DNA from: Argopecten irradians
Taxonomy: Eukaryota > Mollusca > Bivalvia > Pectinida > Pectinidae
Reading direction: 5' to 3'
DNA length: 64,000 nucleotides
Assembly (NCBI RefSeq): GCF_041381155.1
Contig: NC_091134.1
Coordinates: 38,771,338-38,835,337 of the forward strand
Shown here: positions 15,601 through 64,000 of the stretch, piece by piece
Position numbering within the stretch: the stretch's first letter is position 1
Layout of the letters: every line of letters begins with the position of its first letter
The notes under the pieces: generated by a model
Databases searched by the model: none
What the model saw: the letters and a program-made list of their open reading frames with translations, nothing else
Told to the model about the DNA's origin: nothing
Translations under genes and position numbers: made by a program

Positions 15601-16411
15601 TTATAAATTAAGAAGGAAAGGCATGGAAGAGCCTAACCAAATGATGAATATCCATTATGGACAAAATGTCTTGATAAACAAATCTTCGGAAAAATAAACT
15701 TAACAAACTACAGCACTGGCTGTCCATACAATGTGAGAAAATAAGTTTGGCTTTTATGGCATAAGACATTTGTATTTTGTTTTCTGCCAGTTGTTGTAAT
15801 ATCAGCTGGAGAAAACGGCTGCAGCTCCCTTGGACAGTCTTGCCCTTCCAGTTCTACCTGTGTTAGCAATACGTGCGTCTGTAACTCCGGATACTACGAC
15901 AGCGGCACCAGCTGTTCACAACGTAAGTTATTTATGTTCAAGTAAGTTTAAATTTGCCTCATTAATTCGTTTCTTTTTTCATATCAAGGTTATAACTAAA
16001 GAAGGATAGACATGGCCTTTTAATATGCTAAACAAAATGATTAAGAGATATATTTGTCAAATGTATTACCATATCAATCACACATGCACATTTTCTTGCC
16101 TTTCATGTAACGGTATTACACATGAATAAATGTAACCCTAAATATCTTACCCAAAGTATAAGTAAAAAAAAATCATTGAAAAAGTGAAATCATTCCTTAA
16201 AATGGCTATCTGATTAACATTCCGCAATTAACTTTTAATATTATTTTTCGTTTCACAGTGATTACATTAAGCGGGACCTGTACTAGTAGTTTAGGTGTTA
16301 CCCAGTGTCAGACAAATGGAGCTGTTTGTGCAACTGACAACAAATGCAGATGTAACCAAGGAACATTTGATAGTAACGGTTTTGGTACAGCTGATGGTAC
16401 CTGTGTAAGCA
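9613..16411 (+). CDS. EB-module gene, block A (exons 1-7; broken off at the gap)
   Basis: Spliced gene model on the plus strand: 9613-9660, 12562-12637, 13699-13856, 15009-15140, 15398-15529, 15791-15922, 16259-16411. From exon 3 on, exons are phase 1-1 and each encodes one cysteine-rich module ending in the pattern CxCxxGYYDSG...C. This resembles EB/EGF-like repeats, so a secreted or cell-surface protein is likely. Exons 4-6 arose by recent tandem duplication: they sit on a ~390-bp unit and their introns are nearly identical. Exon 3 carries a 32-bp tandem duplication that breaks the frame. The model stops 651 bases before a scaffold gap; the same DNA without the gap continues into FN3 exons in block C. 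Confidence 0.6.
9661..12561 (+). other. Putative long first intron of block A
   Basis: No exon-like segment recognised apart from a MITE at 10,642-10,967. Short open frames at 10,138-10,627 and 11,453-11,680 have no cysteine-module signature and no matching splice sites. Confidence 0.35.
10642..10967. mobile_element. MITE with long terminal inverted repeats, MULE-like
   Basis: The left end AATCTAATTAAAATCAGACT matches the inverted right end with one mismatch, and pairing extends over about 110 bases per side with small gaps. The 9-base direct repeat GTCCATGTC flanks it (10,633-10,641 and 10,968-10,976), the target-site length typical of Mutator-like elements. No coding capacity. Confidence 0.75.
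12562..12637 (+). CDS. Candidate second exon of block A
   Basis: Bounded by a strong acceptor (tttttacctgcag) and donor (gtaaga). In phase 0 it reads VFWTYYYDTCFAQGGC and continues with two more cysteine-rich turns, leaving phase 1, which fits exon 3. A second frame is also open, so the reading rests on phase agreement with both neighbours. Confidence 0.4.
13699..13856 (+). pseudogene. EB-type exon disrupted by a 32-bp tandem duplication
   Basis: Acceptor cttgtag and donor gtaagt frame a module reading IGAGDTGCSAPDISCPS and onward. Bases 13,753-13,784 are repeated exactly at 13,785-13,816. The 32 extra bases shift the frame and bring a stop; one copy alone would give a 126-base, phase 1-1 exon. 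Either the allele is broken, the exon is skipped (which keeps frame), or the duplication is an assembly fault. Confidence 0.65.
15009..15140 (+). CDS. Block A exon 4, EB-like module
   Basis: Phase 1-1, 132 bases. Reads VAISAGESGCIIVGRTCPSS, then cysteines and CVCNSGYYDSGTSC. A longer frame across the same DNA (14,940-15,173) is out of phase with the module and lacks its cysteines. Confidence 0.75.
15398..15529 (+). CDS. Block A exon 5, EB-like module
   Basis: Phase 1-1, 132 bases, acceptor ttctgccag, donor gtaagt. Reads VVISAGESGCSSLGQSCPSS and ends CVCNSGYYDSGTSCSR. Near-identical to exon 6, with near-identical intron before it. Confidence 0.8.
15791..15922 (+). CDS. Block A exon 6, EB-like module
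   Basis: Phase 1-1, 132 bases. Differs from exon 5 by a few residues (AGEN for AGES near the start; C-terminal TSCSQ). Confidence 0.8.
16259..16411 (+). CDS. Block A exon 7, 'TLSG' module
   Basis: Phase 1-1, 153 bases. Reads ITLSGTCTSSLGVTQCQTNG and on to CRCNQGTFDSNGFGTADGTC. By my count it differs from its otherwise near-identical copy at 48,828 at 11 positions, four residues. Confidence 0.8.
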
Positions 16412-16492
16412 GTAAGTTTATAAGATTGTTAAAATGATATCATCGCCTGATTTAGAACAAAACATTAACTGGTGTTTCTACTTCTTCCGAAT

Positions 16493-33200: not shown

Positions 33201-36200
33201 ACATATTGATTAATTTTCAATACTTTATGCAAAATATAAATTAAATATAAGGTTCCAGATAGAGATAGATATTGTGTTTTTCTCCAGCAATATAATATGA
33301 TCTAACTGCAATGTTTATGAAAAAGTAATGATTGGCTAGACTATATATGTGCCTGAAGTTATTGCATTGACCAAGTACCTCATTTTTCCTTACTAAGAAT
33401 ATTAATGTTAAATCATTGATAGTTCTTTAAACAAGCAAATCTTCAAAGTATTGTTGCAAATTAATACACTAATAACAACAACAATAAGATAATTTGCTGT
33501 GTACTGAACATTCATAACCGATATTCGGGTAATAATAATGAATGTTGAATTTCATACAATATTATATACACTGTAGTACATGTTATCAGTTAAAAGTAAG
33601 TTTTGATGATAACATACCTGTTTGATGACATGTCTCCCTTACATTAAAGCTATCGTCTTAAATCTATTTAATATATTGCTTTTGCAATTGTTGTCAAAGA
33701 TATAGATATTCATTGATCTTAGATTTCAGATTAACGCGAAAAATGACAACACTTTGTCGGGACCATGTCAGGATCATTTCATGCAATTTTCAGCCGAATT
33801 GCACTGGTATAACAGGAGGAGAAGTTCAAAATGTATTTTCAAGATGGCGGCTGTGGTGGATTTTGGATCGACCAAAAAAATAACAATACTTTGTCGGGAC
33901 TATGTGCGGATTATTTCAGGCAATTCAAGACGTCAAAATGTGAAAAGTTTACGCACTGAGCACGACGGACGTAACATAGTGGATATAGGTCATCCTGACC
34001 CTCCGGTAGAATGTAATGAACAAAATCAAATGTTTGTCTTTCTTGTTTTTTTTTCTCTTGGGATTTTCTTTTATATTGTTTAAAATCCCTCCAACTACTT
34101 AAGGAGGGTTAAGAAAATGGTATATATGAACCCTATATATATTATAAAAGAAATTCCAGAGGTATCTTGGCGCCCACAACAGAATGAACAATGTCTGACA
34201 ATGGCAAGAGGGATCTTTTCTCTGATTTTCAAACTTTGACGACATCCTGCATATAAAATTTGAAACTTGTTCAACAATCTGAACCTTCAGTGCTTTCTGA
34301 GAAATAGCGGTAACAAACTTGAACTATCAGAATTCAAGATGGCATCCTGTCGGCCATATTTGTTCATTGATCGGTCCCAAAATGCAAAATGCACAACTTG
34401 GGCATTAGGGGAACTTGCATATAAAATTTTAGACAGATCCCTTCAGCAATTTTCTGAGAAATAGCGGTAACAAACTTCAACTATCAAATCCAAGATGACG
34501 TCCTGTCAGCCATCTTGTTGACCGATCGGTCCCAAAATGCAATATGCACAACTTGGTTCCTAGCTCATAGAGGGACCTGCATATGAAATTTGAGACAGAT
34601 CGTTTCAGTACTTTCAGAGAAATAGCGGTTACAAACTTCAACTATCAAAATCCAAGATGGCGGCCTGTCGTCCAATTGCAACTTGCTCACCGATCAGTCC
34701 CCAAAATGCAATATGCACACTTAGGGCCCAAGGAGATCCTGCAAATAAAATTTGAAACAGATCCCTTCAGTACTTTCTGAAAAATAGCGGTAACAAACTT
34801 CAATGATCAAAATTCAGGATGGCGGCCTGTCGTCCAATTGCAACTTGCTCACCGATCAGTCCCCAAAATGCAATATGCACACTAAGGGCCCGAGGGGATC
34901 CTGCACATGAAATTTGAAACATATCCTTTCAGTACTTTCTGAAAAATAGCGGTAACAAACTTCAATGATCAAAATTCAAGATGGCAGCCTGTCAGCCATC
35001 TTCTCATCCGGAATGCAATATGCCCAACTAGGGCCCTTGGGGAACCTGCATGTGAAATTTGAGACTGATCGCGGTAACAAGAATTACCAATATGGATTGC
35101 AAAGATACACCTTTTTCTGTTCGTAATAGCCAGTTGTTATTGATGGAGTATTTCCTTGAATGGCATCCCTTATTTGTTGCAAAACTATTAAATATCTTAC
35201 TTACGTGCAGTACATATTCCGTTATAGGCTAATGGACCATCACTGTCATAGTAACCATTGATACAGGTACACACACCACCAATACACACAGAGCTGTCCT
35301 TACAGGCGTTTGATGGTGATGTTGGACTTGCTAATCCTGGGTTGAGTCCTGATTTAGAAAGATAACCGCCGTACTGGTATGCTTCATCACAGAATAGAAT
35401 CAAAATTGGAATATATATTTGATTGACCTAAGTATGTAGGACCTAAATGATTCAGAAAACAAAGGCTACTAAGAAGCTATATCATCTTCTAATTATATAA
35501 TTAGTAATCAACCAATAAACTGGAAAGTTAAATATGCTTAATTTGAATAATAACACAAATGCACAATTCCTTTTTTCATGGAAATTCCATGTATTTTTCG
35601 TCCTGGTGCATATCCCTAAGTAAATGCTGTAAAACAAACCGTTGGTTTAGCATTCTCTTTCATTCGCTTTTTGTAACGTTGTAGATATATTTCCAGGTCT
35701 ATTGATTCAGCTTGCAAAGAATTCATTTGAACTTTTATTTGCATGGAAGATGATACTTTCCATTTGTTTTGATGAGTTGCAATTCCGGAAAATGCCAACA
35801 AAACAGATTGAAATTAAACTAGAAATTATCATACACAATTTAAGGGCTTTTCACTGCATTTAGTGTACAATGCTATCATTGCCAGTTAAGTTAAGTTAAG
35901 AACTGAAAATATTGTATGGAATCAAAACTTTTTTACTGTATAGATCTTGACAAAATAATTTTATCTGAATTTTCACCGAAAACGATGATTTTGCATTATG
36001 AGTCCATGATCAATCGGAAGTTGACATTTTAGAGGAAAGAGTACAATTACAAACTTTCTCCAAATACTATTCTACATTGTACACAAGAAAAACTTAAGAA
36101 ATGGGTTCAGTGATTAACGAGCTATGGCTGTCTAGGATAACTGGGAAGTGACGTCAAACAGGCATATTTGAATTTTAATCGACGCCATATTAACATTATT

Positions 36201-46477: not shown

Positions 46478-47577
46478 AAAACAAACACATAAATTTACAT
46501 CTAGTATATTTTTTTTTTTATTTATTATTATTTTTTTTTTTTTTTTTTTGACATTTTTTATTTTAGTATTGATATCACTACTTTTTTTAATATCACAAGG
46601 GTATGAAAACAATTGTTTGCAAACTGTGTGAATCTAGCGGATTCTGACAAACATACTTTTCTTGTACGATGTTTTAAGTGATGCTTTTTCCATATCAATT
46701 AGCAAAGTCAATGTCTTTATGATGACATCACGATAACATAGGATTTTGCGCCATTCTCGGATTTTTTTTCATAAGGGATATAAAAAAATTCAAATAAATT
46801 GAAATGCCAATGTCTCTTTTGTGACGTCGCTATTTACGCGCCATTACCGGATTTTGTTCACGCAGGTATGAAAGAATAAATCGACTATTCTCAAATTGTG
46901 TTTTGTATGAAAACAAAATTTTAATTTAGTTAAGAGACAAAAAAAAATGTATACTTTTTATAGAAACCATATATTTACAGAAATTATGCCATGTTAAAAA
47001 ACACAATAAGAAATAAAAGAAAAAAGAAAAAAAAACGCAGGGAAATTATGTTTTACCATTGCTAACAGATACGAATATCTATATTTGCACTTGTGATACC
47101 ATGAGTATCTTTAAAATAAACCTTCAGCCCACCCATCCAACCCCCCTCCCCCAACCCTTATCGAAAGATTATACGAATAGTTTACGATTCAGTTATCAGA
47201 TATTTCTTACTATTAAAAAAAGGATATTTTCTAGTATATCAGAAGTTAGATGTAATTAGAAAAAGGATCATTTTCTACCTTGAGATAGGACGAATAGAAA
47301 TCTGTGTCCTTTGCAGATATTCAGTACTGTATATCAACTGTTGACATGCATGGGGCTTGAGGTTAGACAGTAGGGAAAACATTTCTCTTTCCTAACCACC
47401 AAGGCTGAAGAGTCTATTATTTCATTGTTTTTCCTGCTTTTCGACTTATTTTAACAATAAGGGCTATAGTTTCTTGGATTCAAAGAACTTCTTTCCAAAA
47501 TATATCCTGTGTGTTGTCTTTTCCAATGTACTTTACATGTTTCGGCTGGTGAGATACTTCTATATTTTTTGTTCCAG

Positions 47578-47709
47578 TTGTTGCTATATCAGCTGGAGAG
47601 AGTGGTTGCATCATTGTTGGACGGACGTGCCCTTCCAGCTCTACTTGTATTAGTAATACGTGCGTATGTAACTCCGGATACTACGACAGTGGCACGTCTT
47701 GTTCACGCA
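47578..47709 (+). CDS. Block C exon 1, EB-like module
   Basis: Copy of block A exon 4 (15,009), identical as far as I can read. 132 bases, phase 1-1. Confidence 0.75.
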
Positions 47710-50700
47710 GTAAGTATTCATATTTTTGCTCAAGTATTTTAAAATTCGCCTTATTGATTCCTTTATTTTCCATATCAATATTATAAATTAAGAAGGAAAG
47801 GCATGAGCCTAACCAAATGATGAATATCCATTATGGACAAAATGTCTTGATAAACAAATCTTCGGAAAAATAAACTTAACAAACTACAGCACTGGTTGTC
47901 CATACAATGTGAGAAAATAAGTTTGGCTTTTATGGCATAAGACATTTGTATTTTGTTTTCTGCCAGTTGTTGTAATATCAGCTGGAGAAAGCGGCTGCAG
48001 CTCCCTTGGACAGTCTTGCCCTTCCAGTTCTACCTGTGTTAGCAATACGTGCGTATGTAACTCCGGATACTACGACAGTGGCACGTCTTGTTCACGAAGT
48101 AAGTATTCATATTTTTGCTCAAGTATTTTAAAATTCGCCTTATTGATTCCTTTATTTTCCATATCAATATTATAAATTAAGAAGGAAAGGCATGGAAGAG
48201 CCTAACCAAATGATGAATATCCATTATGGACAAAATGTCTTGATAAACAAATCTTCGGAAAAATAAACTTAACAAACTACAGCACTGGTTGTCCATACAA
48301 TGTGAGAAAATAAGTTTGGCTTTTATGGCATAAGGCATTTGTATTTTGTTTTCTGCCAGTTGTTGTAATATCAGCTGGAGAAAACGGCTGCAGCTCCCTT
48401 GGACAGTCTTGCCCTTCCAGTTCTACCTGTGTTAGCAATACGTGCGTCTGTAACTCCGGATACTACGACAGCGGCACCAGCTGTTCACAACGTAAGTTAT
48501 TTATGTTCAAGTAAGTTTAAATTTGCCTCATTAATTCGTTTCTTTTTTCATATCAAGGTTATAACTAAAGAAGGATAGACATGGCCTTTTAATATGCTAA
48601 ACCAAATGATTAAGAGATATATTTGTCAAATGTATTACCATATCAATCACACATGCACATTTTCTTGCCTTTCATGTAACGGTATTACACATGAATAAAT
48701 GTAACCCTAAATATCTTACCCAAAGTATAAGTAAAAAAAAATCATTGAAAAAGTGAAATCATTCCTTAAAATGGCTATCTGATTAACATTCCGCAATTAA
48801 CTTTTAATATTATTTTTCGTTCCACAGTGATTACGTTAAGCGGGACCTGTACTAGTGGTTTAGGTGTTACCCAGTGTCAGACGACTGGAGCTGTTTGTGC
48901 CACTGACAACAAATGTAGATGTCTCCAAGGAACATTTGATAGTAACGGGTTTGGTACAGCTGGTGGTACCTGTGTGAGCAGTAAGTTTATAAGATTGTTA
49001 AAATGATATCATCGCCTGATTCAGAACAGAAGATTAACTGGTGTTTCTACTTCTTCCGAGTTGGTACCCTTTCCTGTATTAAAGAAAGGGTACCAGACTA
49101 ATATAAACGGGCTTCAAAAACGTTTAAACAGAAATATGGCCAAAGATTTATTTGAACTGCTCTTTTCTTATTCATATGTTTTGTTTTACTATACGTCTTG
49201 TTCAGGATTTAAGTTTTAATCCGTTTCAAGAGTAATTGTGATGATCTATACTTACTAATACATTGTTCTTTATTTAAAATGTTTATATATATATGCTATG
49301 TTCTATTCCCTTCAATTTCACAATTTGCTTACTTATTCCAATAGTGACGGTACTAATACTGCGTATTCTGTATTAGCTTTCCTATTATCGATTGTTACGT
49401 CTTTATTTTGTGAGCGCAATTCACGTTTGTTTTCTCATAAAAGTATGACGTTACGCTCGCAAACACTCGACGCCACAGTCGATACCTACCCACTAGGGCG
49501 GGTGACTCTGTAATTTGCAAATACCATCGCAGTTGTAGAGTGATTAGGGCATACAATATATAAGCAATAAACTTTTGGTTGCGAATTAGCACCCACCAAA
49601 TACACCTTGTAGTCGGTGATTTGTCTCAGGGTACTGTCTTTTACTCCGAAAACTATGGCTAATAACCTTTGCTCGACTGCTTGGAGGAATTTTCAAATAC
49701 ATGTCTTTGAACAAGATTATTTTAGTGTTTCATTGTAGACTTAGATCTAAACCTTTTGTTGCCTTTTGAAATACAGAAAAGAGCACCAATGTTTGCTTGA
49801 TGGGCACTTAGCAACAACTTCTATTTTCGTACTCTTAGTTACTTTAATCTGAAACCAGAGTGTTGTCTTGATTATTTTCGTAATAAATTAAAATATGCTA
49901 CGATGTGTTACCTTTATCAAGTAACTATTTTTTAATTACTAAACTTTGACTTTGTTTCAGTAAGTAACATTATGGCGACATCTCTAGCCTACTCAAGTGT
50001 TGGAACCGCATCTGTGACTATAATCTGGTCAGCTCCAGCCACCTACAGTGGTCAGGTCAGAAGGTATGATGTGACATGGAGTGAGGCTGGTGGTGGTACC
50101 CGGACTGGTACTACAGCTTCATCTCTACATGTGACAGGACTACAGTCAGCCACAACGTACAACTTGTATATAAAGTCTATAGAATCTGGAAGTTGGACAG
50201 CAGATCAAGAAGTAACAACAACAACACCAATAACGGTTACAACAAGTAAGACTTCATTTAATATTTGGAATGAAAAATGTACGATATGTACCATCCTCGA
50301 TACTCCAATGATTCTGATCACTTAAGATCTCTACACCCCTGGACTATCTCAAAGTAAAATTGGAGGCAACAGAACAGAACAGGTAATTTTGTCCCTTGTT
50401 GTACATCAAAAGAGCCGTATAACGGTACACTTTGGTTGACTGTGTGGCTTTGAAGTTGGGCGTCGCTCTCTCTGTGATCTTCAAAGAAAATGTTTGCAGG
50501 CCTGGGATTGGTTCAGATTTGTTCACTTGAGCTACCTTCAGTTTTGCTATGAGATAGTCCAGGGGTGTAGAGATCGTAAGTGATCGGAATCCCTGGGGTA
50601 TCGAGGATGGATATGTACGGTACTGATAAATCACTGAAGGAGCAAAGGCGGGAAGCTATTTCGGCATATTTTACTCAATGCTTTTTTCATGCAATTTATG

Positions 50701-53700
50701 AAAAATTTTGGGTTTCTTTTATTAATTTATTCGACATCATTAATGAAAATTTATTTCAAAATTCATATCCTTACTTTCTTATTGTTTTGTACTGTTATAT
50801 CACATTAACGCATTTCTTTGGTCCGAAGGCTGCACACAGTGGTAAATCGAATGATATGTGATAATCTTTCCGGCTAAATAATAATGCATGATATTATTTT
50901 GTTCTTGATTTACCTTTGATTTAGATCTTTTAAATTACTTTTTGTCGTTACAGAAAGCCTTCTTGGAGATCTATGTGGTGTTTGTACTGACTCCAATGCC
51001 ATCTGTAGCATTTCTAAATGTGTATGTAGATCTGGTTACTATGACAATGATGGAGATACTACCAATGTCGGGGGAACATGTACTGCTAGTAAGTACTATC
51101 AATATAATCATAAATGATAAAAGTTTCAATAAATCTTCCCAGTTTTCATATTTGCACATGTATTATAATCCTATGAAGTTGCATAATAGTTTCAAAGAAA
51201 TAAGTAAACATGAAAGAGAAATAACCATATAGTTTTTAAAATCTTAAATTAAAAGCTGTTGTATTGGAGTTAAATGAAATCTTTCTAAATCAGGACTAAA
51301 CCCTTGATCATCCTGTCAGCCACATATAAAATAGTTTTGTACCCAGACCTTTAACACTGCAATATTTTTTTTTTTTTTTTTTTTTTTTGGGGGGGGGGGG
51401 GGTCGAGCGTGGGCGGATTTGGCAACCCCACCTTTAATATCTTCCTGTGACATTGTATTGGAATTTTAAAAAATATCTTTCAAAATCAGGATTAAACCCA
51501 GGAGAATCATGCCCAACCTCACCATCAAATGCATGTAAGAATAACTCTGTGTGTACTGGTGGTATGTGTACCTGTAACAACGGTTACTATGACAGTGATG
51601 GTCCGTCAACCAGTAGTGGGACATGTACAGCACGTAAGTTATGTTCCACTTAACATAAAACTTTTTGTGTTAATTATAAAAAAGTCTTTATTTTCTTAAC
51701 ATCTTCTGGAGCCGTAAGTACAATTGCCTATCAATTTATAATATATTATTGTTTATCAACATACATTTACTGCGAATATCCAAAAAATAAGTGAACTTGA
51801 TAACATACTTAAGCTCCAACCCATGAAAGAAATTACAACCAAACATTTCATGTTACTGTCAGAAGCTTAATAAAACATTAATGCACGATTGTAATATCAG
51901 GACTAAACCCAGGGGTGACATGTAATGCAGTAATACCAAATGCATGTAAGGACAACTCAGCTTGTAGTGAAGGTTCATGTTCCTGTAACTCCGGTTACTA
52001 TGACAATGATGGTTTGTCAGCTAATAACGGGATATGTACTGCACGTAAGTTTACGGTTACGCTGCATGACTATACAATACTGGTTGGCAACTCGTTATCG
52101 TGATGGACCTAATATCGTAATTTTAAATGGCGTAATTATACAAAACAAGATTTTCATACTTTTTGTGTATAGAAAGATGACGCATACCAAAATCATCAAC
52201 AACAAATCATCAACAATAAATATTTTCAAGTTTTAGAAAAAATCGATATTTAGATTAAAAAGGGCAAGTTTCAGTAAATCTTACATCACAAGAATGACAT
52301 CAGTCATGGGAAGCATGGATCGGTTTTATTTTAAGATAAATAGTACCGAATCGCATATCGTCTGCATCCTATGATGTCATACAACAGCGTTCAAAAACCG
52401 AAAGTAGGAAGGGATGACAAAATACAAGGTAGACCACTATATTGATTTTGTTGGTTATTTCAATGTTTACAGAATTAATCACCATTAATAGTGTTTTTAA
52501 ATATATTTTATACGGTTTTAGACCTTTTAAACTACAGTTAAACACCTAAATAACGAACACGCTTACAACGAATTCGTGATTATAATGTAGTATTTTTCAT
52601 TCCCCGTTAAGATTCCCATGATATATCTGCACTATCTGTATAAAAAAAATTTTAAAACGTATACTGATAACACATTTAGTCTAGTATAGAAATTTCAAAT
52701 CTCGTCGTGCTGATAGCGAGAATTAAAACATGGCTGCCTGCATGGAGGCGCGAGACCTTTCCCTCGGGACACGATTTCAAAGTCCAAGGGGTACTGAAAT
52801 GTATTGGAATCTATATGCTCACACACGTGTTATGGTTAGTAGAGCTTCTTAGGTGTACTTGAACATAATTAAGTTGATAAAGTGTATGGATCAAGCCTAA
52901 CCTTAGGTATTACCTTCGAGTCGTAGATTGTTGTGATGTTGTATTTGGGCAAAATATGCAACAAAATGTACATTTCAGGTTAGAAAGTCCATTTGGTTCA
53001 TTAAATGAAGAAAATCATTACTTAAAAATTGGATAGTTTTTAAACATTAAAAGAAATAAAATAAACATTACTCAACTATAATAAATGTAGTACCTTACAA
53101 TGAAAGGACCCCGAAAGGGTTATAGTATTACCGGCAAAGACGCATTTTGTCATGAAATGTCATGTGACCAGTTTTCCTTTATTACATAACTACATTAAGT
53201 TATATTATAAGGAATTTCACCGTCAAAATGTACCACAAAATACAGCAGTCAGCCATTTCGCCCCGCTGTCTCGAATTCTGACGTCACGTCATTATTTCGT
53301 AACTTCACTTCATTGTTTCTGTTATAACGTCATAATTGCACAGCCAATGAACAAATCTCCATATGCAAAAAAAGTTACACCAGCGAAGTCACTGGACATC
53401 AGGTGGGTAATGAAGTAAAATTTATCCAATTTACGATTGTGCATCTGGGACGTTGTTTTGATCCCAGGTGTCCTAATATGTTTAATTTAGTTAAGAAGTT
53501 CACCCGAGACAAAAATTTCATACGGCATTTTAGTATTTTAGTCATAATCTCATAACATCGTTCATCTTTACCTTTATGAAAGTATTGTCGTTTGGCCGCC
53601 GTTTTCAATTGTTAAAGCAAAGTATTATCTGATATTCCTAACTTAATTGAAATGCTGTTGCTGAAAGTTACCAAACATTTAATTGATGTTTCAGTGATCG

Positions 53701-56700
53701 CATTAAGCGGGACCTGTTCTAGTGGTTTAGGTGTTACCCAGTGTCAGACGAATGGAGCTGTTTGTGCCACTGACAACAAATGTAGATGTAACCAAGGAAC
53801 ATTTGATAGTAACGGGTTTGGTAACGCTGGAGGTACCTGTGTGGGCAGTAAGTTTATGATATATATGATGGTATAATCGCATTACTATGTTTTCGCTTGC
53901 TTCTACAATCTGAGTGTCACCTCCTTTGATTGAACCTTTGTTTCAAGTCACTGTGAACAACGAAGGCCCCCTATAACTATTTTTTGTGCCTTTTCAACTT
54001 TCGAAATGATTTAACTCAATTCAAATTTTGATAACCTTAATAATTTCTGAACAACTTCTGTTATACATGTATTGACTCTGGTCAAATGCAAAGATAAATG
54101 TGTCGAGGTAGTCAACGCTGGTGATGATACTGTTACAACTTTTGAAAATTACTTGCGGTTCCAGTGAACAACCTAATGGTGACCTTTTTAAGCTCCTCTA
54201 ATGTTGGAACCACATCTGTGACTATAAGCTGGTCAGCTCCGGCCACCTACAGTGGTCAGGTCAGTAGGTATGATGTGGTATGGACTGGTGGTGGTACCGG
54301 GACTGGTACTACAGCTACATCTCTACAGGTGACAGGACTTCAGTCGGCCACAACGTACAACTTCTATATAAAGTCTATAGAATCTGGAAGTTGGACAGCA
54401 GATCAAGAAGTAACAACGTCAATACCAATAACAGTTACTACAAGTAAGACATAAAAATGGATGACTGTATTTATTTCATGATAATATGTTAATATTGATC
54501 CTTAAATTCATTAATTTAGATATAAAGCTTGTGTGTGATAAATCGTAAGTGTATGTTTTTGAAAATATTATGAAAATACATTCGTTGCCTTAGATAATTA
54601 AACAATTAAGAGAACAAAAAAACTTTAAAATCTGCTTGAAAAATTTAGAATGAACTAGAGAATTGCTAGTTGAAACTTCGGATAAGTCCAAATGATAATC
54701 TAGGACATTGTTTCCTAGATTGAAGTTTGTGCATTTTTACGTTCAACCAATAGCTCTCGGTAAGAGAATGCCAATATTAAGTTTTCGGCGACTTAATAGA
54801 TATTGTATTTTTAACATTTGACCTCCGAAATGCATATGCATACAAATCGATTAATTTTATAAATGATTACATGATGTCATTTTCTTAATTGATATGTATT
54901 GTGACATCACCTTGGTTGGTTTTTGTTTGAATTTTTTCCATAGAAAGCCTTCTTGGTAATACATGTGGTTCCTGTGCTGACCCCAACGCCGTCTGTAGTA
55001 CTACATGTGTGTGTAAATGTGGTTACTATGACAACGATGGAGATACTACAAATGTCGGCGGAACATGTACTGCTAGTAAGTATAACAGTATAAAGAATAT
55101 ATTTAGAAGTCTCAAACAACATTACAGGACTTGGTGACATCGCGTAGGATATAGTATTGTATCGTTAAACCGACAATGAAACATACATAACAATGATTAC
55201 TTTAAAATTAATATTATTGTACACCACCGATAAATCGCCCTCGCTAATTGGTCGAAAGACGTCACGTGTGAAGGCGACAAAACATCATGTTTCACTCTGA
55301 ACGGCATGTTCGAAAATCATGTTTTCCCCATGCGAAGCCCTGTTTAGCAAGATTTGTCGTTCATGTAACGGAACTCTCCTAGGTATTCCAATAAGGGTAG
55401 CAGAGTACAGTAGATTTGAAAAATTCAGCAAAATAATGTGCAGACTTTAATTATGTACACAGCTTTTTTACCTTAAATAACACCTATATAAAAGTATATA
55501 TATTTTTAATCTACACAACATTTGCAATTGTCAGGTCTGCTTTTTATTGTTTTGTGAGCTTTAAAAAACCATGGTAATCAAATTTTGTTTTTGAAAAATT
55601 GCAATCTGGATACACTTGAATTACCAGTAACGTACAAATATTACTTACATTTACTTGTGTGACTTGTTTTCTTCTGCATAGACATTCTACCTGGAGAGCC
55701 CTGTAACAACATCCTCAATGAATGTACAGCCTTGTCTACCTGTAGTGGGGGTATATGTACCTGTAACTCAGGTTACTATGACAGTGGTGCAACATGTGAA
55801 TTAAGTAAGTTGCGACATTACATTTAACTTAATTGCCCACTGCTCATGATAATAAAGACTAATATAATACAATGAGTAAAATTGTAGCCTCTATTTTCAG
55901 GTGTTTTAAACATTTTTCTTCAAATCAGGACTAAACCCAGGAGTAGCATGCCCAGTATCACCAACAAACGCCTGTAAGGACAACTCTATATGTATTGGTG
56001 GTGTGTGTACCTGTAACAATGGTTACTATGACAGTGATGGTCCATCAGCCAATAACGGATTATGTACTCTAAGTAAGTCAGATATATGTAAAAGCTTTGC
56101 ATCAAATAATGGATGTCATTCAGGGAAACAATTTTTCAATAGCAACTGACAATTACGAACAGAAAAGGTCTATGTATGGAATTTATATCATTGGATTTAT
56201 ATGCTCATAGACAAAGAAATCCTTGTTAGAACAACATACTCATGTTTTGCAAGATATTTTCGTCTAGTAAACTAACTGCTGTTTAACTCAGTGTAACTTG
56301 TTCCCCAGAGATCCTTCCCGGGGAGTCCTGTAACAACATCGCCAATGAATGTACAGCCTTGTCTACCTGTAGTGGGGGTATATGTACCTGTAACACAGGT
56401 TACTATGACAGTGGTGATACATGTGAATCAAGTAAGTAATGAAAGTAAATATATAACTTTAAACATAAAATTGCATATGTTGACTCTGAAGCAAAACCTC
56501 TTTCACATTCTTACGGATGCGACGCCGGTTTAACACGGTCGAAAAATTACCATGAATGCATCATTACGGATAATTTTCGTCCGTGCGAAAAACTTCTACA
56601 TGTTTGTTTCTTCTCCCGGAACAAAGTGACAATTGTTTATTGTCTTTGATCAATCAGTAAAGGTGCATGCAATCATGATTTAGAAATGAAAAAAATGACA

Positions 56701-59700
56701 GATACTGCATGTATGTTGAAGGTTCTGTTCTAGATGTTTTGCGATCCAACCAAAGCCGAATATAATCTTAATATACTAGTCATATTGGTATATATATATA
56801 TATAGGAATACATTCTAACTTGGATTGATTCATAAGAAGGCCTTTGTCGATCTAGCACTGAAATTGTTCAACCATACTTTCCCTAAAACTAAAATCTGTG
56901 CAAAATGTAATTATTTTTAATCAAAAATTGACATAGGAAAGGCATGTCCTTCAACACCAACAAATGCATGTAAGGACGACTCTGTGTTTTTAGAGGTGTG
57001 TGTACCTGTAACAACGGTTACTATGACAGCTATGACTCGTCAGCTAATAGTGGGATGTGTACGGAAAGTAAGTCAGGCTGACTAACGAACAGTTAGATCA
57101 CAAAGAGTAAATAAAATTCGCTGCCTTGGAGAAGTCTCCTTGTCCTATGTACATGATATGAAAAATAAGCTAAAATTGCATCTATATTAAATCAAAATTC
57201 TTTCAAATCAGGACTAAATCCAGGAGTATCATGTCCAGTATCACCAACAAACGCCTGTAAGGACAGCTCTATATGTATTGGTGGTGTGTGTACCTGTAAC
57301 AATGGTTACTATGACAGTGATGGTCCATCAGCCAATAACGGGATATGTACTCTAAGTAAGTCAGATATATGTAAAAGCTTTGCATCAAATAATGAATGTC
57401 ATTCAGGGAAACAATTTTTCAATAGCAACTGACAATTACGAACAGAAAAGATCTATGTATGGAATTTATATCTTTGGATTTATATGCTCATAGACAAAGA
57501 AATCCTCGTTAGAACAACATACTCATAACTACATAACTCAGTGTAACTTGTTCCCCAGAGATCCTTCCCGGGGAGTCCTGTAACAACATCGCCAATGAAT
57601 GTACAGCCTTGTCTACCTGTAGTGGGGGTATATGTACCTGTAACACAGGTTACTATGACAGTGGTGATACATGTGAATCAAGTAAGTAATGAAAGTAAAT
57701 ATATAACTTTAAACATAAAATTGCATATGTTGACTCTGAAGCAAAACCTCTTTCACATTCTTACGGATGCGACGCCGGTTTAACACGGTCGAAAAATTAC
57801 CATGAATGCATCATTACGGATAATTTTCGTCCGTGCGAAAAACTTCTACATGTTTGTTTCTTCTCCGGGAACAAAGTGACAATTGTTTATTGTCTTTGAT
57901 CAATCAGTAAAGGTGCATGCAATCATGATTTAGAAATGAAAAAAATGACAGATACTGCATGTATGTTGAAGTTTCTGTTCTAGATGTTTTGCGATCCAAC
58001 CAAAGCCGAATATAATCTTAATATACTAGTCATATTGGTATATATATATATATATATAGGAATACATTCTAACTTGGATTGATTCATAAGAAGGCCTTTG
58101 TCGATCTAGCACTGAAATTGTTCAACCATACTTTCCCTAAAACTAAAATCTGTGCAAAATGTAATTATTTTTAATCAAAAATTGACATAGGAAAGGCATG
58201 TCCTTCAACACCAACAAATGCATGTAAGGACGACTCTGTGTTTTTAGAGGTGTGTGTACCTGTAACAATGGTTACTATGACAGCTATGACTCGTCAGCTA
58301 ATAGTGGGATGTGTACGGAAAGTAAGTCAGGCTGACTAACAAACAGTTAGATCACAAAGAGTAAATAAAATTCGCTGCCTTGGAGAAGTCTCCTTGTCCT
58401 ATGTACATGATATGAAAAATAAGCTAAAATTGCATCTATATTAAATCAAAATTCTCTCAAATCAGGACTTAACCCAGGAGTAGCATGCCCAGTATCACCA
58501 ACAAACGCCTGTAAGGACAACTCTATATGTATTGGTGGTGTGTGTACCTGTAACAATGGTTACTATGACAGTGATGGTCCATCAGCCAATAACGGATTAT
58601 GTACTCTAAGTAAGTCAGATATATGTAAAAGCTTTGCATCAAATAATGGATGTCATTCAGGGAAACAATTTTTCAATAGCAACTGACAATTACGAACAGA
58701 AAAGGTCTATGTATGGAATTTATATCATTGGATTTATATGCTCATAGACAAAGAAATCCTTGTTAGAACAACATACTCATGTTTTGCAAGATATTTTCGT
58801 CTAGTAAACTAACTGCTGTTTAACTCAGTGTAACTTGTTCCCCAGAGATCCTTCCCGGGGAGTCCTGTAACAACATCGCCAATGAATGTACAGCCTTGTC
58901 TACCTGTAGTGGGGGTATATGTACCTGTAACACAGGTTACTATGACAGTGGTGATACATGTGAATCAAGTAAGTAATGAAAGTAAATATATAACTTTAAA
59001 CATAAAATTGCATATGTTGACTCTGAAGCAAAACCTCTTTCACATTCTTACGGATGCGACGCCGGTTTAACACGGTCGAAAAATTACCATGAATGCATCA
59101 TTACGGATAATTTTCGTCCGTGCGAAAAACTTCTACATGTTTGTTTCTTCTCCCGGAACAAAGTGACAATTGTTTATTGTCTTTGATCAATCAGTAAAGG
59201 TGCATGCAATCATGATTTAGAAATGAAAAAAATGACAGATACTGCATGTATGTTGAAGGTTCTGTTCTAGATGTTTTGCGATCCAACCAAAGCCGAATAT
59301 AATCTTAATATACTAGTCATATTGGTATATATATATATATAGGAATACATTCTAACTTGGATTGATTCATAAGAAGGCCTTTGTCGATCTAGCACTGAAA
59401 TTGTTCAACCATACTTTCCCTAAAACTTAAAATCTGTGCAAAATGTAATTATTTTTAATCAAAAATTGACATAGGAAAGGCATGTCCTTCAACACCAACA
59501 AATGCATGTAAGGACGACTCTGTGTTTTTAGGTGTGTGTACCTGTAACAACGGTTACTATGACAGCTATGACTCGTCAGCTAATAGTGGGATGTGTACGG
59601 AAAGTAAGTCAGGCTGACTAACGAACAGTTAGATCACAAAGAGTAAATAAAATTCGCTGCCTCGGAGAAGTCTCCTTGTCCTATGTACATGATATGAAAA

Positions 59701-61530
59701 ATAAGCTAAAATTGCATCTATATTAAATCAAAATTCTCTCAAATCAGGACTTTACCCAGGAGTAGCATGCCCAGTATCACCAACAAACGCCTGTAAGGAC
59801 AACTCTATATGTATTGGTGGTGTGTGTACCTGTAACAATGGTTACTATGACAGTGATGGTCCATCAGCCAATAACGGATTATGTACTCTAAGTAAGTCAG
59901 ATATATGTAAAAGCTTTGCATCAAATAATGGATGTCATTCAGGGAAACAATTTTTCAATAGCAACTGACAATTACGAACAGAAAAGGTCTATGTATGGAA
60001 TTTATATCATTGGATTTATATGCTCATAGACAAAGAAATCCTTGTTAGAACAACATACTCATGTTTTGCAAGATATTTTCGTCTAGTAAACTAACTGCTG
60101 TTTAACTCAGTGTAACTTGTTCCCCAGAGATCCTTCCCGGGGAGTCCTGTAACAACATCGCCAATGAATGTACAGCCTTGTCTACCTGTAGTGGGGGTAT
60201 ATGTACCTGTAACACAGGTTACTATGACAGTGGTGATACATGTGAATCAAGTAAGTAATGAAAGTAAATATATAACTTTAAACATAAAATTGCATATGTT
60301 GACTCTGAAGCAAAACCTCTTTCACATTCTTACGGATGCGACGCCGGTTTAACACGGTCGAAAAATTACCATGAATGCATCATTACGGATAATTTTCGTC
60401 CGTGCGAAAAAACTTCTACATGTTTGTTTCTTCTCCGGGAACAAAGTGACAATTGTTTATTGTATTTGATCAATCAGTAAAGGTGCATGCAATCATGATT
60501 TAGAAATGAAAAAAAGACAGATACTGCATGTATGTTGAAGTTTCTGTTCTAGATGTTTCGATCCAACCAAAGCCGAATATAACCTTAATATACTAGTCAT
60601 ATTGGGTATATATATATATAGGAATACATTCTAACTTGGATTGATTCATAAGAAGGCCTTTGTCGATCTAGCACTGAAATTGTTCAACCATACTTTCCCT
60701 AAAACTAAAATCTGTGCAAAATGTAATTATTTTTAATCAAAAATTGACATAGGAAAGGCATGTCCTTCAACACCAACAAATGCATGTAAGGACGACTCTG
60801 TGTTTTTAGAGGTGTGTGTACCTGTAACAATGGTTACTATGACAGCTATGACTCGTCAGCTAATAGTGGGATGTGTACGGAAAGTAAGTCAGGCTGACTA
60901 ACGAACAGTTAGATCACAAAGAGTAAATAAAATTCGCTGCCTCGGAGAAGTCTCCTTGTCCTATGTACATGATATGAAAAATAAGCTAAAATTGCATTTA
61001 TATTAAATCAAAATTCTCTCAAATCAGGACTAAATCCAGGAGTATCATGCCCAGTATCACCAACAAACGCCTGTAAGGATAACTCTGTGTGTATTGGTGG
61101 TGTGTGTACCTGTAACAATGGTTACTATGACAGTGATGGTCTATCAGCCAATAACGGATTATGTACTCTAAGTAAGTCAGATATATGTAAAAGCTTTGCA
61201 TCAAATAATGGATGTCATTCAGGGAAACAATTTTTCAATAGCAACTGACAATTACGAACAGAAAAGGTCTATGTATGGAATTTATATCATTGGATTTATA
61301 TGCTCATAGACAAAGAAATCCTTGTTAGAACAACATACTCATGTTTTGCAAGATATTTTCGTCTAGTAAACTAACTGCTGTTTAACTCAGTGTAACTTGT
61401 TCCCCAGAGATCCTTCCCGGGGAGTCCTGTAACAACATCGCCAATGAATGTACAGCCTTGTCTACCTGTAGTGGGGGTACATGTATCTGTAACACAGGTT
61501 ACTATGACAGTGGTGATACATGTGAATCAA
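47578..61530 (+). CDS. EB/FN3 module gene, block C (26 exons seen)
   Basis: Plus-strand exons in order: three VISAGE EB modules, TLSG, FN3, SLLG, GLNPG, GLNPG, TLSG, FN3, SLLG, ILPGE, then GLNPG-ILPGE-KACPS repeated four times and a fifth GLNPG-ILPGE. Apart from three KACPS exons that are 131 bases long, every exon is phase 1-1. The domain plan is a long extracellular rod of small disulfide-rich modules with FN3 domains, the kind seen in adhesive or recognition proteins. No signal exon is present in this copy (block A has the candidate) and no transmembrane or stop-bearing last exon is seen before the LTR element, so the 3' end is probably right of the window or missing. Function unknown. Confidence 0.7.
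47967..48098 (+). CDS. Block C exon 2, EB-like module
   Basis: Copy of block A exon 5. VVISAGESGCSSLGQSCPSS start, CSR end; phase 1-1. Confidence 0.8.
48360..48491 (+). CDS. Block C exon 3, EB-like module
   Basis: Copy of block A exon 6; phase 1-1, 132 bases. Confidence 0.8.
48828..48980 (+). CDS. Block C exon 4, TLSG module
   Basis: 153 bases, phase 1-1. Reads ITLSGTCTSGLGVTQCQTTG, then CRCLQGTFDSNGFGTAGGTC. Several of its differences from the block A copy agree with the TLSG exon at 53,695. Confidence 0.8.
49961..50245 (+). CDS. Block C exon 5, fibronectin type III domain
   Basis: 285 bases, phase 1-1. VTIIWSAPATYSGQVRRYDV, then TSLHVTGLQSATTYNLYIKS-type core. Same length as the block B FN3 exon. 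Confidence 0.85.
50279..50623. mobile_element. MITE with ~75-bp terminal inverted repeats
   Basis: The left arm (gtac.atatgtaccatcctcg, then ctacacccctggactatctc) pairs with the inverted right arm with a few mismatches. About 345 bases, in the intron 33 bases after the FN3 exon. No transposase; target duplication unclear. Confidence 0.7.
50954..51088 (+). CDS. Block C exon 6, SLLG module
   Basis: 135 bases, phase 1-1. SLLGDLCGVCTDSNAICSIS, then CVCRSGYYDNDGDTTNVGGTC. Confidence 0.8.
51365..51402. repeat. Poly-T/poly-G tract
   Basis: About 24 T followed by 14 G in an intron; length is likely unreliable. Confidence 0.8.
51490..51633 (+). CDS. Block C exon 7, GLNPG module
   Basis: 144 bases, phase 1-1. 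Reads GLNPGESCPTSPSNACKNNS (acceptor aaatcag; the Leu codon is tta), then CTGGMCTCNNGYYDSDG. Confidence 0.8.
51901..52044 (+). CDS. Block C exon 8, GLNPG module
   Basis: 144 bases, phase 1-1. GLNPGVTCNAVIPNACKDNS, then CSEGSCSCNSGYYDNDG. Confidence 0.8.
52045..53694 (+). other. Block C intron, no exon seen
   Basis: 1.65 kb without a module-like frame; open frames at 53,152-53,418 lack cysteine patterns and splice sites. Confidence 0.5.
53695..53847 (+). CDS. Block C exon 9, second TLSG module
   Basis: 153 bases, phase 1-1. IALSGTCSSGLGVTQCQTNG, then CRCNQGTFDSNGFGNAGGTC. Starts the second super-module. Confidence 0.8.
54165..54443 (+). CDS. Block C exon 10, second fibronectin type III domain
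   Basis: 279 bases, phase 1-1; two codons shorter than the other FN3 exons (VVWTGGGTGTGT where they have AEAGGGTRTGT). VTISWSAPATYSGQVSRYDV core. Confidence 0.85.
54944..55075 (+). CDS. Block C exon 11, second SLLG module
   Basis: 132 bases, phase 1-1. SLLGNTCGSCADPNAVCSTT, then CVCKCGYYDNDG: an extra cysteine replaces Ser before GYY. Confidence 0.8.
55682..55804 (+). CDS. Block C exon 12, ILPGE module
   Basis: 123 bases, phase 1-1. ILPGEPCNNILNECTALSTC, then CSGGICTCNSGYYDSGATC. Outside the tandem array. Confidence 0.8.
   Translation, partial: TFYLESPVTTSSMNVQPCLPVVGVYVPVTQVTMTVVQHVN
55929..56072 (+). CDS. Array unit 1, GLNPG exon
   Basis: 144 bases, phase 1-1. GLNPGVACPVSPTNACKDNS, then CIGGVCTCNNGYYDSDG. 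Confidence 0.85.
56309..56431 (+). CDS. Array unit 1, ILPGE exon
   Basis: 123 bases, phase 1-1. ILPGESCNNIANECTALSTC, then CSGGICTCNTGYYDSGDTC. Confidence 0.85.
56937..57067 (+). pseudogene. Array unit 1, KACPS exon, frame-shifted
   Basis: 131 bases. Splice sites are good and the first half reads KACPSTPTNACKDDSV, but GTTTTTAGAGGTGTG holds two bases more than the in-frame copy at 59,475, so the module's second half is out of frame. Skipping the exon would keep the frame. Confidence 0.75.
57212..57355 (+). CDS. Array unit 2, GLNPG exon
   Basis: 144 bases, phase 1-1; GVSCPVSPTNACKDSSICIG variant. Confidence 0.85.
57559..57681 (+). CDS. Array unit 2, ILPGE exon
   Basis: 123 bases, phase 1-1; same sequence as unit 1. 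Confidence 0.85.
58191..58321 (+). pseudogene. Array unit 2, KACPS exon, frame-shifted
   Basis: 131 bases; same two-base difference as unit 1, so the shift predates the copying of these units or spread by conversion. Confidence 0.75.
58466..58609 (+). CDS. Array unit 3, GLNPG exon
   Basis: 144 bases, phase 1-1; protein as unit 1. Confidence 0.85.
58846..58968 (+). CDS. Array unit 3, ILPGE exon
   Basis: 123 bases, phase 1-1; as unit 1. Confidence 0.85.
59475..59603 (+). CDS. Array unit 3, KACPS exon, in frame
   Basis: 129 bases, phase 1-1. KACPSTPTNACKDDSVFLGV, then CTCNNGYYDSYDSSANSGMC. It has GTTTTTAGGTGTG without the two extra bases. One cysteine of the usual C-x-GG-x-C pair is replaced by Phe, so the module lacks a disulfide partner. 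Confidence 0.75.
59748..59891 (+). CDS. Array unit 4, GLNPG exon
   Basis: 144 bases, phase 1-1; begins LYPG instead of LNPG. Confidence 0.85.
60128..60250 (+). CDS. Array unit 4, ILPGE exon
   Basis: 123 bases, phase 1-1; as unit 1. Confidence 0.85.
60753..60883 (+). pseudogene. Array unit 4, KACPS exon, frame-shifted
   Basis: 131 bases, with the same two extra bases as units 1 and 2. Confidence 0.75.
61028..61171 (+). CDS. Array unit 5, GLNPG exon
   Basis: 144 bases, phase 1-1; GVSCPVSPTNACKDNSVCIG, then NGYYDSDGLSANNG (Leu for Pro). Confidence 0.85.
61408..61530 (+). CDS. Array unit 5, ILPGE exon
   Basis: 123 bases, phase 1-1; GGTCICNTGYYDSGDTC variant (Thr and Ile changes). Last host exon in the window. 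Confidence 0.85.
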
Positions 61531-61914
61531 GTAAGTAATGAAAGTAAATATATAACTTTAAACATAAAATTGCATATGTTGACTCTGAAGCAAAACCTCG
61601 TTCACATTCTTACGGATGCGACGCCGGTTTAACACGGTCGAAAAATTACCATGAATGCATCATTACGGATAATTTTCGTCTGTGCGAAAAACTTCTACAT
61701 GTTTGTTTCTTCTCCGGAAACAAAGTGACAATTGTTTATTGTCTTTGATCAATCAGTAAAGGTGCATGCAATCATGATTTAGAAATGAAAAAAAATGACA
61801 GATACTGCATGTATGTTGAAGTTTCTGTTCTAGATGTTTTGCGATCCAACCAAAGCCGAATACAACCTTAATATACTAGTCATATTGATATATATATATA
61901 TATAGGAATACATT

Positions 61915-64000
61915 TGTTGTGCGTAATGAGAGACTTGAAAAAGCCGTGTTAGTTCATGGTTTATTCGTTCTACAAGTAATAACGTTACAAACGTGACGTC
62001 ACAAAACTATGACGTTACAATGCATTATGGCGCGCAAAGGCATACACAATGTTAGTGAAATATCTGCGACATACTGGGGCCGGCAAAAGTGCATTGATTT
62101 AATAAGGTTACGAAACTAAAGTTATTGTTCGCGTTGTGTAATTTTTTATGATTTGGTCAGTCTCTCACTTCTTCTTGGTTCCTTTACATTTATTTCTAAA
62201 GGAAACAGTTTTGTGATTGGTCTGTTAGTTCTCCCGCTACGTGTTTTCACTATAGCAGCTCTCGCGTGTCCGTCGCCTCCAATGATAAGGTCCTCCACTA
62301 CTCCCAATTTCCAATAGATCCGTTTTGTATCGTCGTGAATTTGTACCACATCACCAATCTTAATCGTTTCTTTGACGGTACCAGATGCGCGTTGGAATTC
62401 TCGTAGAGATGTGAGATATTCCTTCTTCCACCGTGTCCAGATATGTTGCAGTATTTCCGTTTTACGAGAATACTGGTTGTTTAAAGTTACATGTGAAACT
62501 GGCCCATGAGGAGTCTGTCTTTTATCGGGATACACGGGTGATGATATTCTGCGTCCGTAAAGTAAGTGTGACGGAGTGAGTGGTTCTGGATCTCTGTTGT
62601 CCACGGACACGTGTGTTATAGGACGGTCATTGATGATCATCTCGACTTCTGAGATGAGTGTGGATAACTCCTCCACAGTAATGTAGGCTGATCCAAGTAC
62701 TTTGAATATAGTTGTTTTGACTATTCCTATTAAACGTTCCCAGAACCCGCCAAACCAAGGGGCTCTCTTTGGGATGAATTTCCACTCTGTTCCATGCTCT
62801 TGTAGTTTTTCCTTAACAACCCGTGAATTTGTAATGGATTTAACTGTCTCCGCCGCAGCCAAAAAAGTCGTTCCATTATCGGAAATCATTGTTTGTGGGG
62901 TAGACTTCTTGCTGACAAAACGACGAAAAGCCATAATGAATGAATCCTCGGTCAAATCTGACACAATTTCAAGATGTATGGCACGTGTACTAGCACAAGT
63001 AAATAGGCAAATGTACACCTTTTTGTCCCTCGAATTCTTCATTTTCACATGTATAGCTCCGGTAAAATCTACTCCTGTAACTGTAAATGGTGTCTTTCAA
63101 TCTGTCTTTAGGTAGTGGTGGCGGGTCTGGTGCAAGAAAACTTTTCCCTGTCACTTTCCTACACGGAACACATTTGCGTAGACAATTTCGTACTTCTTGT
63201 CGAATGCTTGGTATCCAAAACTTCTCCCTCAATGTCACGATCGTTGCCTCTGGTCCACAATGCAGATTCCGTCGATGTGTATCTTCTATAATGAGTTTAG
63301 TAAACGCATGTGACTTGGGTAAGAGGAGAGGAAACTTTGTGTCGTCCGGTAATGGTGCGTTATGTATCCTACCTTGATATCTGATCAATCCATTGGAATC
63401 CATGAACAACTTTAACTGTCTGATTAAGTGGTTCCGTTTAGTGTTGTTCAAACTTTCCTTTACATCTCCATAGCTTTCTTGTTGGACAACTTTGATCCAG
63501 TATTTTGACGCCTGGTTTAGTTCCTGCGAAATGATGTCGCCACAGATCCGATCATTTTTGCTCTGTCTACAGTTGTTTGCGAACCGAAGTATGAAAGCAG
63601 TGATCCGTAGCAGTTTCTGGTAAGAACTGTAGTTCGATAGGGTAAGGATATGAGGTACTGCTTGTTCACATTCCTCTTGTTGAATTTCCTCCTCTACCCC
63701 GTGCTCTTTGACCTGCGAGATCATCAATTTTGTCGTGCTATTTGGGTCCCATATAGGCCATTCGGGTTGATTAATTATCCACTTAGGTCCATGAATCCAT
63801 AGTGGATTGTCCAACAACTCTTTGGCTGATATCCCCCTTGTTTGGAGATCCGCTGGATTACTGTTTGTGGGTACATATCTCCATGAATGTTTTCCCGTCA
63901 GTTCTTTTATCTGTGTCACTCGGTTTGAAATGAACTTTTTCAGCGGTTTATCCGATTTCAACCAGTGTAGCACTATCTGACTGTCACACCAAAGTGTTAT
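61915..64000 (-). mobile_element. BEL/Pao LTR retrotransposon fossil, 3' part
   Basis: The minus-strand coding region resembles the end of a BEL/Pao polyprotein: an RNase H-side segment (SWRYVPTNSNPADLQTRG), the integrase zinc-binding region, the integrase core (ISDNGTTF) and a C-terminal domain. The rest lies beyond the right edge. The left edge begins TGTTGTGCG at 61,915, a typical LTR end; the inner edge of that LTR, before the coding region, is not resolved. The element appears broken, with about one break in the visible part. The pre-insertion site (ggaatacattctaac) survives in the four other array units, so the insertion is younger than the array. Confidence 0.85.

Follow-up and report, generated by a model that had tools for sequence, protein, structure and literature searches.

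A young tandem exon array with a broken, probably skipped exon in a putative EB-module and fibronectin type III gene of the scallop Argopecten irradians

We analyzed a 64,000-nt stretch of Argopecten irradians DNA (the window; forward strand of NC_091134.1 in assembly GCF_041381155.1, C1:38,771,338-38,835,337), in which a long array of short, repeated exons occupies the right-hand part. C1 is a 75.5-Mb contig of an 846-Mb assembly that represents one allele. Three exon types, GLNPG (G), ILPGE (I) and KACPS (K), make up one unit, G-I-K. The array as a whole reads (G-I-K) six times followed by a terminal G and extends from 55,929 to 69,314, with homology bounds at 55,916/55,919 and 69,327. Its right part lies beyond the window, and positions above 64,000 are given in window numbering carried on past the window end. 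In total there are seven G, six array I and six K exons. The window itself holds five G, five array I and four K exons as well as an older I exon at 55,682; two further G exons, one further I and two further K exons follow outside. An earlier sequence-only reading of the window had described four to five units of ~1.28 kb between 55,929 and 61,914. We could confirm the units, their three exon types and the start of the array. The count had to be raised to six units plus the terminal G once the DNA past the window was read, and 61,914 turned out to be the last base before a long terminal repeat (LTR) element and not the array end.

Starting from 55,929, successive units measure 1,283, 1,254, 1,282 and 1,280 bases. 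Unit-to-unit identity is 96-99% across kilobases, which excludes chance similarity. The mean pairwise difference among the six units is 3.8% for G, 0.5% for I, 0.7% for K and 1.1% for the introns, in line with the earlier description of the introns as almost identical. The closest pair, units 1 and 3, differ by three substitutions, none of them in K. The view of the locus as a young tandem array of cysteine-rich modules of extracellular type is thus supported. We saw no second copy of the array elsewhere in the assembly among the best candidates of a whole-genome DNA search. Because the introns differ by just 1.1% on average, it is plausible that the array is length-polymorphic between individuals. 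The earlier reading also proposed possible roles in adhesion or recognition for such a protein.

Unit 5 is split in its I-K intron by the LTR element, which is 5,595 bp long (61,915-67,509). The element is bounded by 157-bp direct LTRs with one mismatch, has TG...CA ends and is flanked by a 5-bp target duplication (ACATT). Its minus strand matches DUF5641 (65.5 bits) and the integrase domain rve (30.7 bits, just below the cut-off of 32.6). We take DUF5641 to be a mark of BEL/Pao elements; with this assumption, the two LTRs, TG...CA ends, short duplication, integrase and DUF5641 are all as in that superfamily. No other unit carries the element in this intron, so it was presumably inserted after unit 5 had formed.

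The three exon types differ in their integrity. All seven G exons (144 nt) and all six array I exons (123 nt) are intact and of phase 1-1. The K exons of units 1 to 6 are 131, 131, 129, 131, 131 and 122 nt long, and the frame is broken in five of the six, the 122-nt form of unit 6 having the same frame as the 131-nt form. The third cysteine is missing from all six K copies; of 22 aligned modules, the 21 others all have it. K is related to G exons outside the array at up to 79% and is shorter at its start. The K exon of unit 3 is set apart by one 2-base deletion. Given that units 1 and 3, the most similar of all, nonetheless differ in the K lesion, the in-frame K of unit 3 is most simply explained by a later loss of two bases or by an assembly error.

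To see what these lesions mean for the reading frame, exons were joined in sequence, beginning with the I exon at 55,682 and finishing with the terminal G. When every K is included, the first stop appears after 175 residues, and there are 50 stops in total. Retaining only the in-frame K gives 666 residues without a stop, cutting each K to a 72-nt internal form gives 764, also without a stop, and omitting every K leaves 14 open modules from 55,682, or 623 stop-free residues. In the K-less reading, 12 upstream and 13 array exons make 25 consecutive exons in one open frame. Accordingly, the earlier proposal that whole units can be added without breaking the protein stands for G and I, which can be gained as phase 1-1 pairs, and falls for K. 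Only G and I are symmetric in the way known for the LPA KIV-2 and DMBT1 repeats; K is not. Judging from the exon sequences, K is probably a broken exon that is skipped, and the gain per unit is most likely two modules, 89 aa (267 nt), and not three.

The product of the gene would probably be a long, cysteine-rich extracellular protein composed of EB modules and fibronectin type III (FN3) domains. Against the EB module profile (PF01683, cut-off 24.3 bits), a G-I-K-G composite scores 61.9 bits and I alone 30.2, whereas G alone, at 23.0, is just below the cut-off. The in-frame K alone gave no PF01683 match. The six-cysteine EB pattern is present in the array G and I rows of the alignment; a G-type row from elsewhere in the window (35,209-35,346) is without the first cysteine. 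The structure predicted for the G module (mean predicted local distance difference test score, pLDDT, of 65.8) was of too low confidence for a fold search. Solved structures gave no match at E 0.1, and Rfam gave none in 55,000-64,000. Upstream of the array, between 47,578 and 55,804, all 12 domain exons have an open frame with a phase-1 acceptor and donor (Table 1). These exons were examined singly with phase 1 specified in the search, so this result shows only that such sites exist. Their junctions create no stop, because none of the donors leaves a T as the last exon base. In the neighboring gene A, phase-1 sites were found in four of the five exons tried, the exon at 13,701 being without them.

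The ends of the array coincide with G exons. Among the self-alignments, those that touch the array ends start 10-13 bp upstream of the first G exon and run out 13 bp downstream of the last one; the remaining ones begin or stop at the retroelement. Outward of these two exons, similarity to the flank of the next unit drops to background within 15-20 bp on either side. What five further family members of G type have in common with the array hardly exceeds the exon itself and its splice sites. The first and the last G are 91% identical, with 13 distinguishing sites. At these sites the letters of the last G occur five times in G2, five times in G6 and four times in G5, and not at all in G3 and G4. 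G2, G5 and G6 are mosaics of the first and the last G. Variable columns among the six units are also concentrated in G: 12 of 144, against 20 of 1,062 for I, K and intron together (Fisher p = 1.5e-4, with gapped columns and a messy 14-column stretch containing 5 variable columns set aside). Such an excess is expected if the diversity of G predates the array. The presence of G-exon homology at both array ends, together with the mosaic inner G exons, argues for founding by crossing-over between two G exons.

Our overall reading, to which we give somewhat more credence than to all else combined, is that of a recent exon array in a long EB/FN3 gene, founded by unequal crossing-over between G exons and carrying K as a dead passenger. 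The substrate would have been two older G-type exons, with an I exon and the present K, then a G-type exon in decay, between them. Misalignment of those two G exons could then have led to unequal crossing-over and to the founding of the (G-I-K)n-G array, which would have grown to six units by later exchange between whole units. Every added unit would contribute an in-frame pair of six-cysteine modules, as both G and I are phase 1-1. K would already have been dead when copied, and production of the protein would require that it be skipped or shortened. We infer this crossing-over, as we do the skipping of K, expression of the gene, variation in copy number and an extracellular role.

Selection on the modules was estimated as the pooled Nei-Gojobori ratio of nonsynonymous to synonymous rates (dN/dS); the pairs are not independent, and the values carry no significance test. 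For G it is 0.38 across 91 pairs of 14 outside-array exons (a selection, over a 138-nt core), 0.37 between the array and these 14 exons and 0.23 within the array. Together with the values for I and K, this suggests that the modules are coding and that K was once coding too. Several points nevertheless weigh against our overall reading. The value for I (0.59 for nine exons, three of them from the array gene) is a weaker sign of constraint, and that of the in-frame K compared with G (0.35) implies that K was constrained through most of its history. Ranked among 56 local acceptors, that of K stands at the 11th percentile, and the I acceptors are no better; since the two that were scored stand at the 11th and 14th percentiles, the splice score does not single out K. 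The mechanism is also not general, as a three-copy 5.9-kb array elsewhere in the cluster does not end at exons, and exon-bounded ends were therefore rejected as a cluster-wide rule. In two other arrays, of IQAGE and ISAGE type, the end overlaps span stretches that include an exon. A separate idea, that the intron downstream of K is a relic of G-exon introns, was dropped as well: in none of seven local alignments was the score higher than the top value from 200 shuffles. The remaining difficulty is that no family exon, and no 3' end of the gene, was found on the plus strand from 69.3 to 96 kb, which leaves open a gene without its 3' portion.

The last point feeds a serious rival, which we regard as possible although clearly the less probable account: the array may sit in a 3'-truncated, non-functional gene copy, where it would grow through neutral repeat dynamics and alter no protein. 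Among 461 plus-strand open frames between 69.3 and 97 kb, 124 had matches in the stretches read, and those with 12 matches or fewer gave no family exon before 96 kb. A related gene at C1:42.01 Mb goes on past three G exons with an LALSV-type EB exon, an FN3 exon and more exons. Its order, which may be the fuller one, is FN3, EB, three G, LALSV-type EB, FN3, EB, FN3, EB, FN3, FN3, and the absence of the second half of this order within 27 kb downstream in the array gene is the main cause for caution. The broken frame of five of the six K copies fits a dead gene, and part of the gene start (46.5-49.0 kb) closely duplicates 13.9-16.4 kb, so that the cluster has been much rearranged. On the other hand, the 12 upstream domain exons checked and the 13 array G and I exons are without exception open and of phase 1-1. 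The upstream exons, being more divergent, are the better evidence here, the array being so young that its intact copies say little. A receptor tyrosine phosphatase or kinase was considered as the C-terminal part of the protein; the matches listed include one phosphatase domain near the cluster, which is not tied to the array gene. Its several exons occupy C1:39,030,834-39,032,977, about 190 kb away from the array, where the cluster ends on the far side and FN3 exons are close by. No kinase near the cluster was among the matches listed (the searches for phosphatase and kinase scored the best 150 of 396 and 147 of 733 candidates).

Other alternatives concern K or the assembly. An acceptor inside K (TTTTTAGAG, or TTTTTAG in unit 3) might be used, trimming the exon to a 72-nt in-frame mini-exon. 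The piece is indeed 72 nt and phase 1-1 in units 1 and 3, the two printed, and six such exons leave the array free of stops; yet in none of the units does the internal AG score above zero with the local acceptor matrix, and the piece would hold just three cysteines, which makes this use of K improbable. A role of K as a poison exon, included under regulation so as to shift the frame and reduce expression, seems highly improbable. Inclusion of all K exons does bring an early stop, and the 131-nt form is common to four of the six units, with the 122-nt form of unit 6 in the same frame. However, the relatives of K outside the array, as seen in the best candidates of the whole-genome DNA search, are of G type only (69-81%), with no sign of a conserved broken form, and K has lost a cysteine besides. 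We consider it quite improbable that the repetitive sequence misled the assembly as to the number of units or the frame state of single exons. The idea draws on the neighboring IQAGE array, where 13 and 19 private small insertions in two of the five complete units resemble residual base error, and on the single 2-base deletion that distinguishes the in-frame K of unit 3. Against it, the substitutions and indels that distinguish the G-I-K units are consistent, the frame lesion of K is common to five of the six, and the retroelement with its target duplication is inserted cleanly in unit 5.

If the array arose by crossing-over between G exons, as we favor, it belongs with exon arrays of a known kind, and its distinguishing point is a broken exon in the amplified unit. 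Near-identical intragenic tandem units, introns included, are found here as in LPA KIV-2 and DMBT1. Human LPA KIV-2 is described as having two exons per 5.6-kb unit and 1 to about 40 units in people (PMC11462820, PMC6314250). It resembles the scallop array in its near-identical intragenic units, short exons, long introns and cysteine-rich extracellular modules. In LPA, gain or loss of units alters protein length, and the scallop array may behave likewise; the scallop units differ in consisting of EB modules in 1.28 kb with a broken third exon. DMBT1, with 7 to 21 SRCR domains in people (PMC9038570, PMC4851238), likewise has tandem exons for extracellular cysteine-rich domains, in a number that varies. 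Its domain is a different one, and the length polymorphism and microbe binding reported for it would be a guess for the scallop array. For the zinc-finger exons of teleost Piccolo, unequal crossing-over between homologous exons has been proposed to explain exon gain and loss (PMC3484663), a published precedent for the exon-to-exon mechanism. There the steps are of single exons, the domain is a zinc finger and the protein is synaptic, whereas the scallop unit has three exons, one of them dead. A search for papers combining 'EB module' with oyster returned none, and among the related papers listed no such array is evident from titles and the openings of abstracts.

The substrate of the birth of the array, two paralogous exons serving as homology islands, would still be readable from its ends and mosaic exons. 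An amplified unit with a broken exon would also offer a clean natural case for testing how a bad exon is spliced out. If K is silenced by splicing in every unit and the number of units varies, modular extracellular proteins could grow fast even with a unit that is incompletely frame-neutral. A bolder picture, which we think unlikely, is that the whole cluster is a hypermutable receptor-like locus. Its G-I-K, IQAGE and ISAGE cassettes (and FN3 elsewhere on the chromosome) would have been amplified repeatedly, often by exon-to-exon unequal crossing-over, giving ectodomains that differ between individuals in length and module order, perhaps for recognition. Dead exons would ride along because a symmetric-exon cassette tolerates skipping.

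Table 1. Exons of the array gene and the adjoining retroelement, in window coordinates
Feature	Position	Strand	Remarks
EB-module exon, ISAGE type, phase 1-1	47578..47709	+	
EB-module exon, ISAGE type, phase 1-1	47967..48098	+	
EB-module exon, ISAGE type, phase 1-1	48360..48491	+	
EB-like exon, LSGTC type, phase 1-1	48828..48980	+	
Fibronectin type III exon, phase 1-1	49961..50245	+	
EB-like exon, LLGD type, phase 1-1	50954..51088	+	
G-type EB exon upstream of array, phase 1-1	51490..51633	+	
G-type EB exon upstream of array, phase 1-1	51901..52044	+	
EB-like exon, LSGTC type, phase 1-1	53695..53847	+	
Fibronectin type III exon, phase 1-1	54165..54443	+	PF00041 E 1.9e-9, query with a few wrong leading residues
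EB-like exon, LLG type, phase 1-1	54944..55075	+	
I-type EB exon just outside array, older copy	55682..55804	+	89-91% to array I exons
Unit 1 G exon	55929..56072	+	144 nt, intact; array starts here on the left, with homology from 55,916-55,919
Unit 1 I exon	56309..56431	+	123 nt, intact
Unit 1 K exon	56937..57067	+	131 nt, frameshifted
Unit 2 G exon	57212..57355	+	intact; mosaic of first and last G
Unit 2 I exon	57559..57681	+	intact
Unit 2 K exon	58191..58321	+	131 nt, frameshifted
Unit 3 G exon	58466..58609	+	intact
Unit 3 I exon	58846..58968	+	intact
Unit 3 K exon	59475..59603	+	129 nt, sole in-frame K; also without third cysteine
Unit 4 G exon	59748..59891	+	intact
Unit 4 I exon	60128..60250	+	intact
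Unit 4 K exon	60753..60883	+	131 nt, frameshifted
Unit 5 G exon	61028..61171	+	intact; mosaic
Unit 5 I exon	61408..61530	+	intact
In-window part of LTR element	61915..64000	-	integrase and DUF5641 at 62,149-63,096, minus strand

The array gene is part of a larger cluster. In a 293-kb stretch around the window and a 20-kb stretch at C1:42.01 Mb, taken together with overlaps removed, there are 117 matches to domains of EB, FN3 and EB-N type, which include some split or frame-broken copies. Across the whole genome, G-type exons turned up only here and at C1:42.017-42.020 Mb, with a weak signal on contig C1061; the matches number at least 38 and include K and I copies. C1061 was considered as a second allele and rejected, its last 6.1 kb being just 68-88% identical to the cluster in the 40 longest matches, many of them in repeats. 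An I-type exon and an FN3 exon of this contig match the cluster at 90%, and it looks like a paralog. As for other members of the family, some may be receptor phosphatases.

Further duplications were seen in and around the cluster. The IQAGE-type EB array comprises six exons (103,279-111,242) in units of 1.46-1.53 kb, with indels in three of the six; the private insertions of its units are perhaps base errors. The 5.9-kb block is present at 158,794-176,666 on the minus strand in three ~99% identical copies with four EB exons each, and a G-type exon at 172,793 is out of frame near its end. A 2.5-kb segment of four exons, three of ISAGE and one of LSGTC type, occurs twice, at 13,955-16,426 and 46,523-48,995, 32.57 kb apart. 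The two copies are 94-100% alike in aligned blocks, which may reflect recent duplication or an assembly effect. Outside the window on the same chromosome, C1:62,656,494-62,697,742 carries a much longer array of FN3 exons (34 of 55 FN3 matches), 23 of which follow one another every ~921 bp (62,677,216-62,697,491), the others being mostly ~1.8 kb apart. A satellite of ~45 bp per unit adjoins an EB exon at 150,000-153,588. Two minus-strand features lie within the window: a reverse transcriptase fragment (PF00078; 39,185-40,501) with the appearance of a long interspersed nuclear element (LINE)-like remnant, and a 418-aa open frame at 368-1,621 with CARD domains (PF00619, E 1.2e-25) in two stretches.

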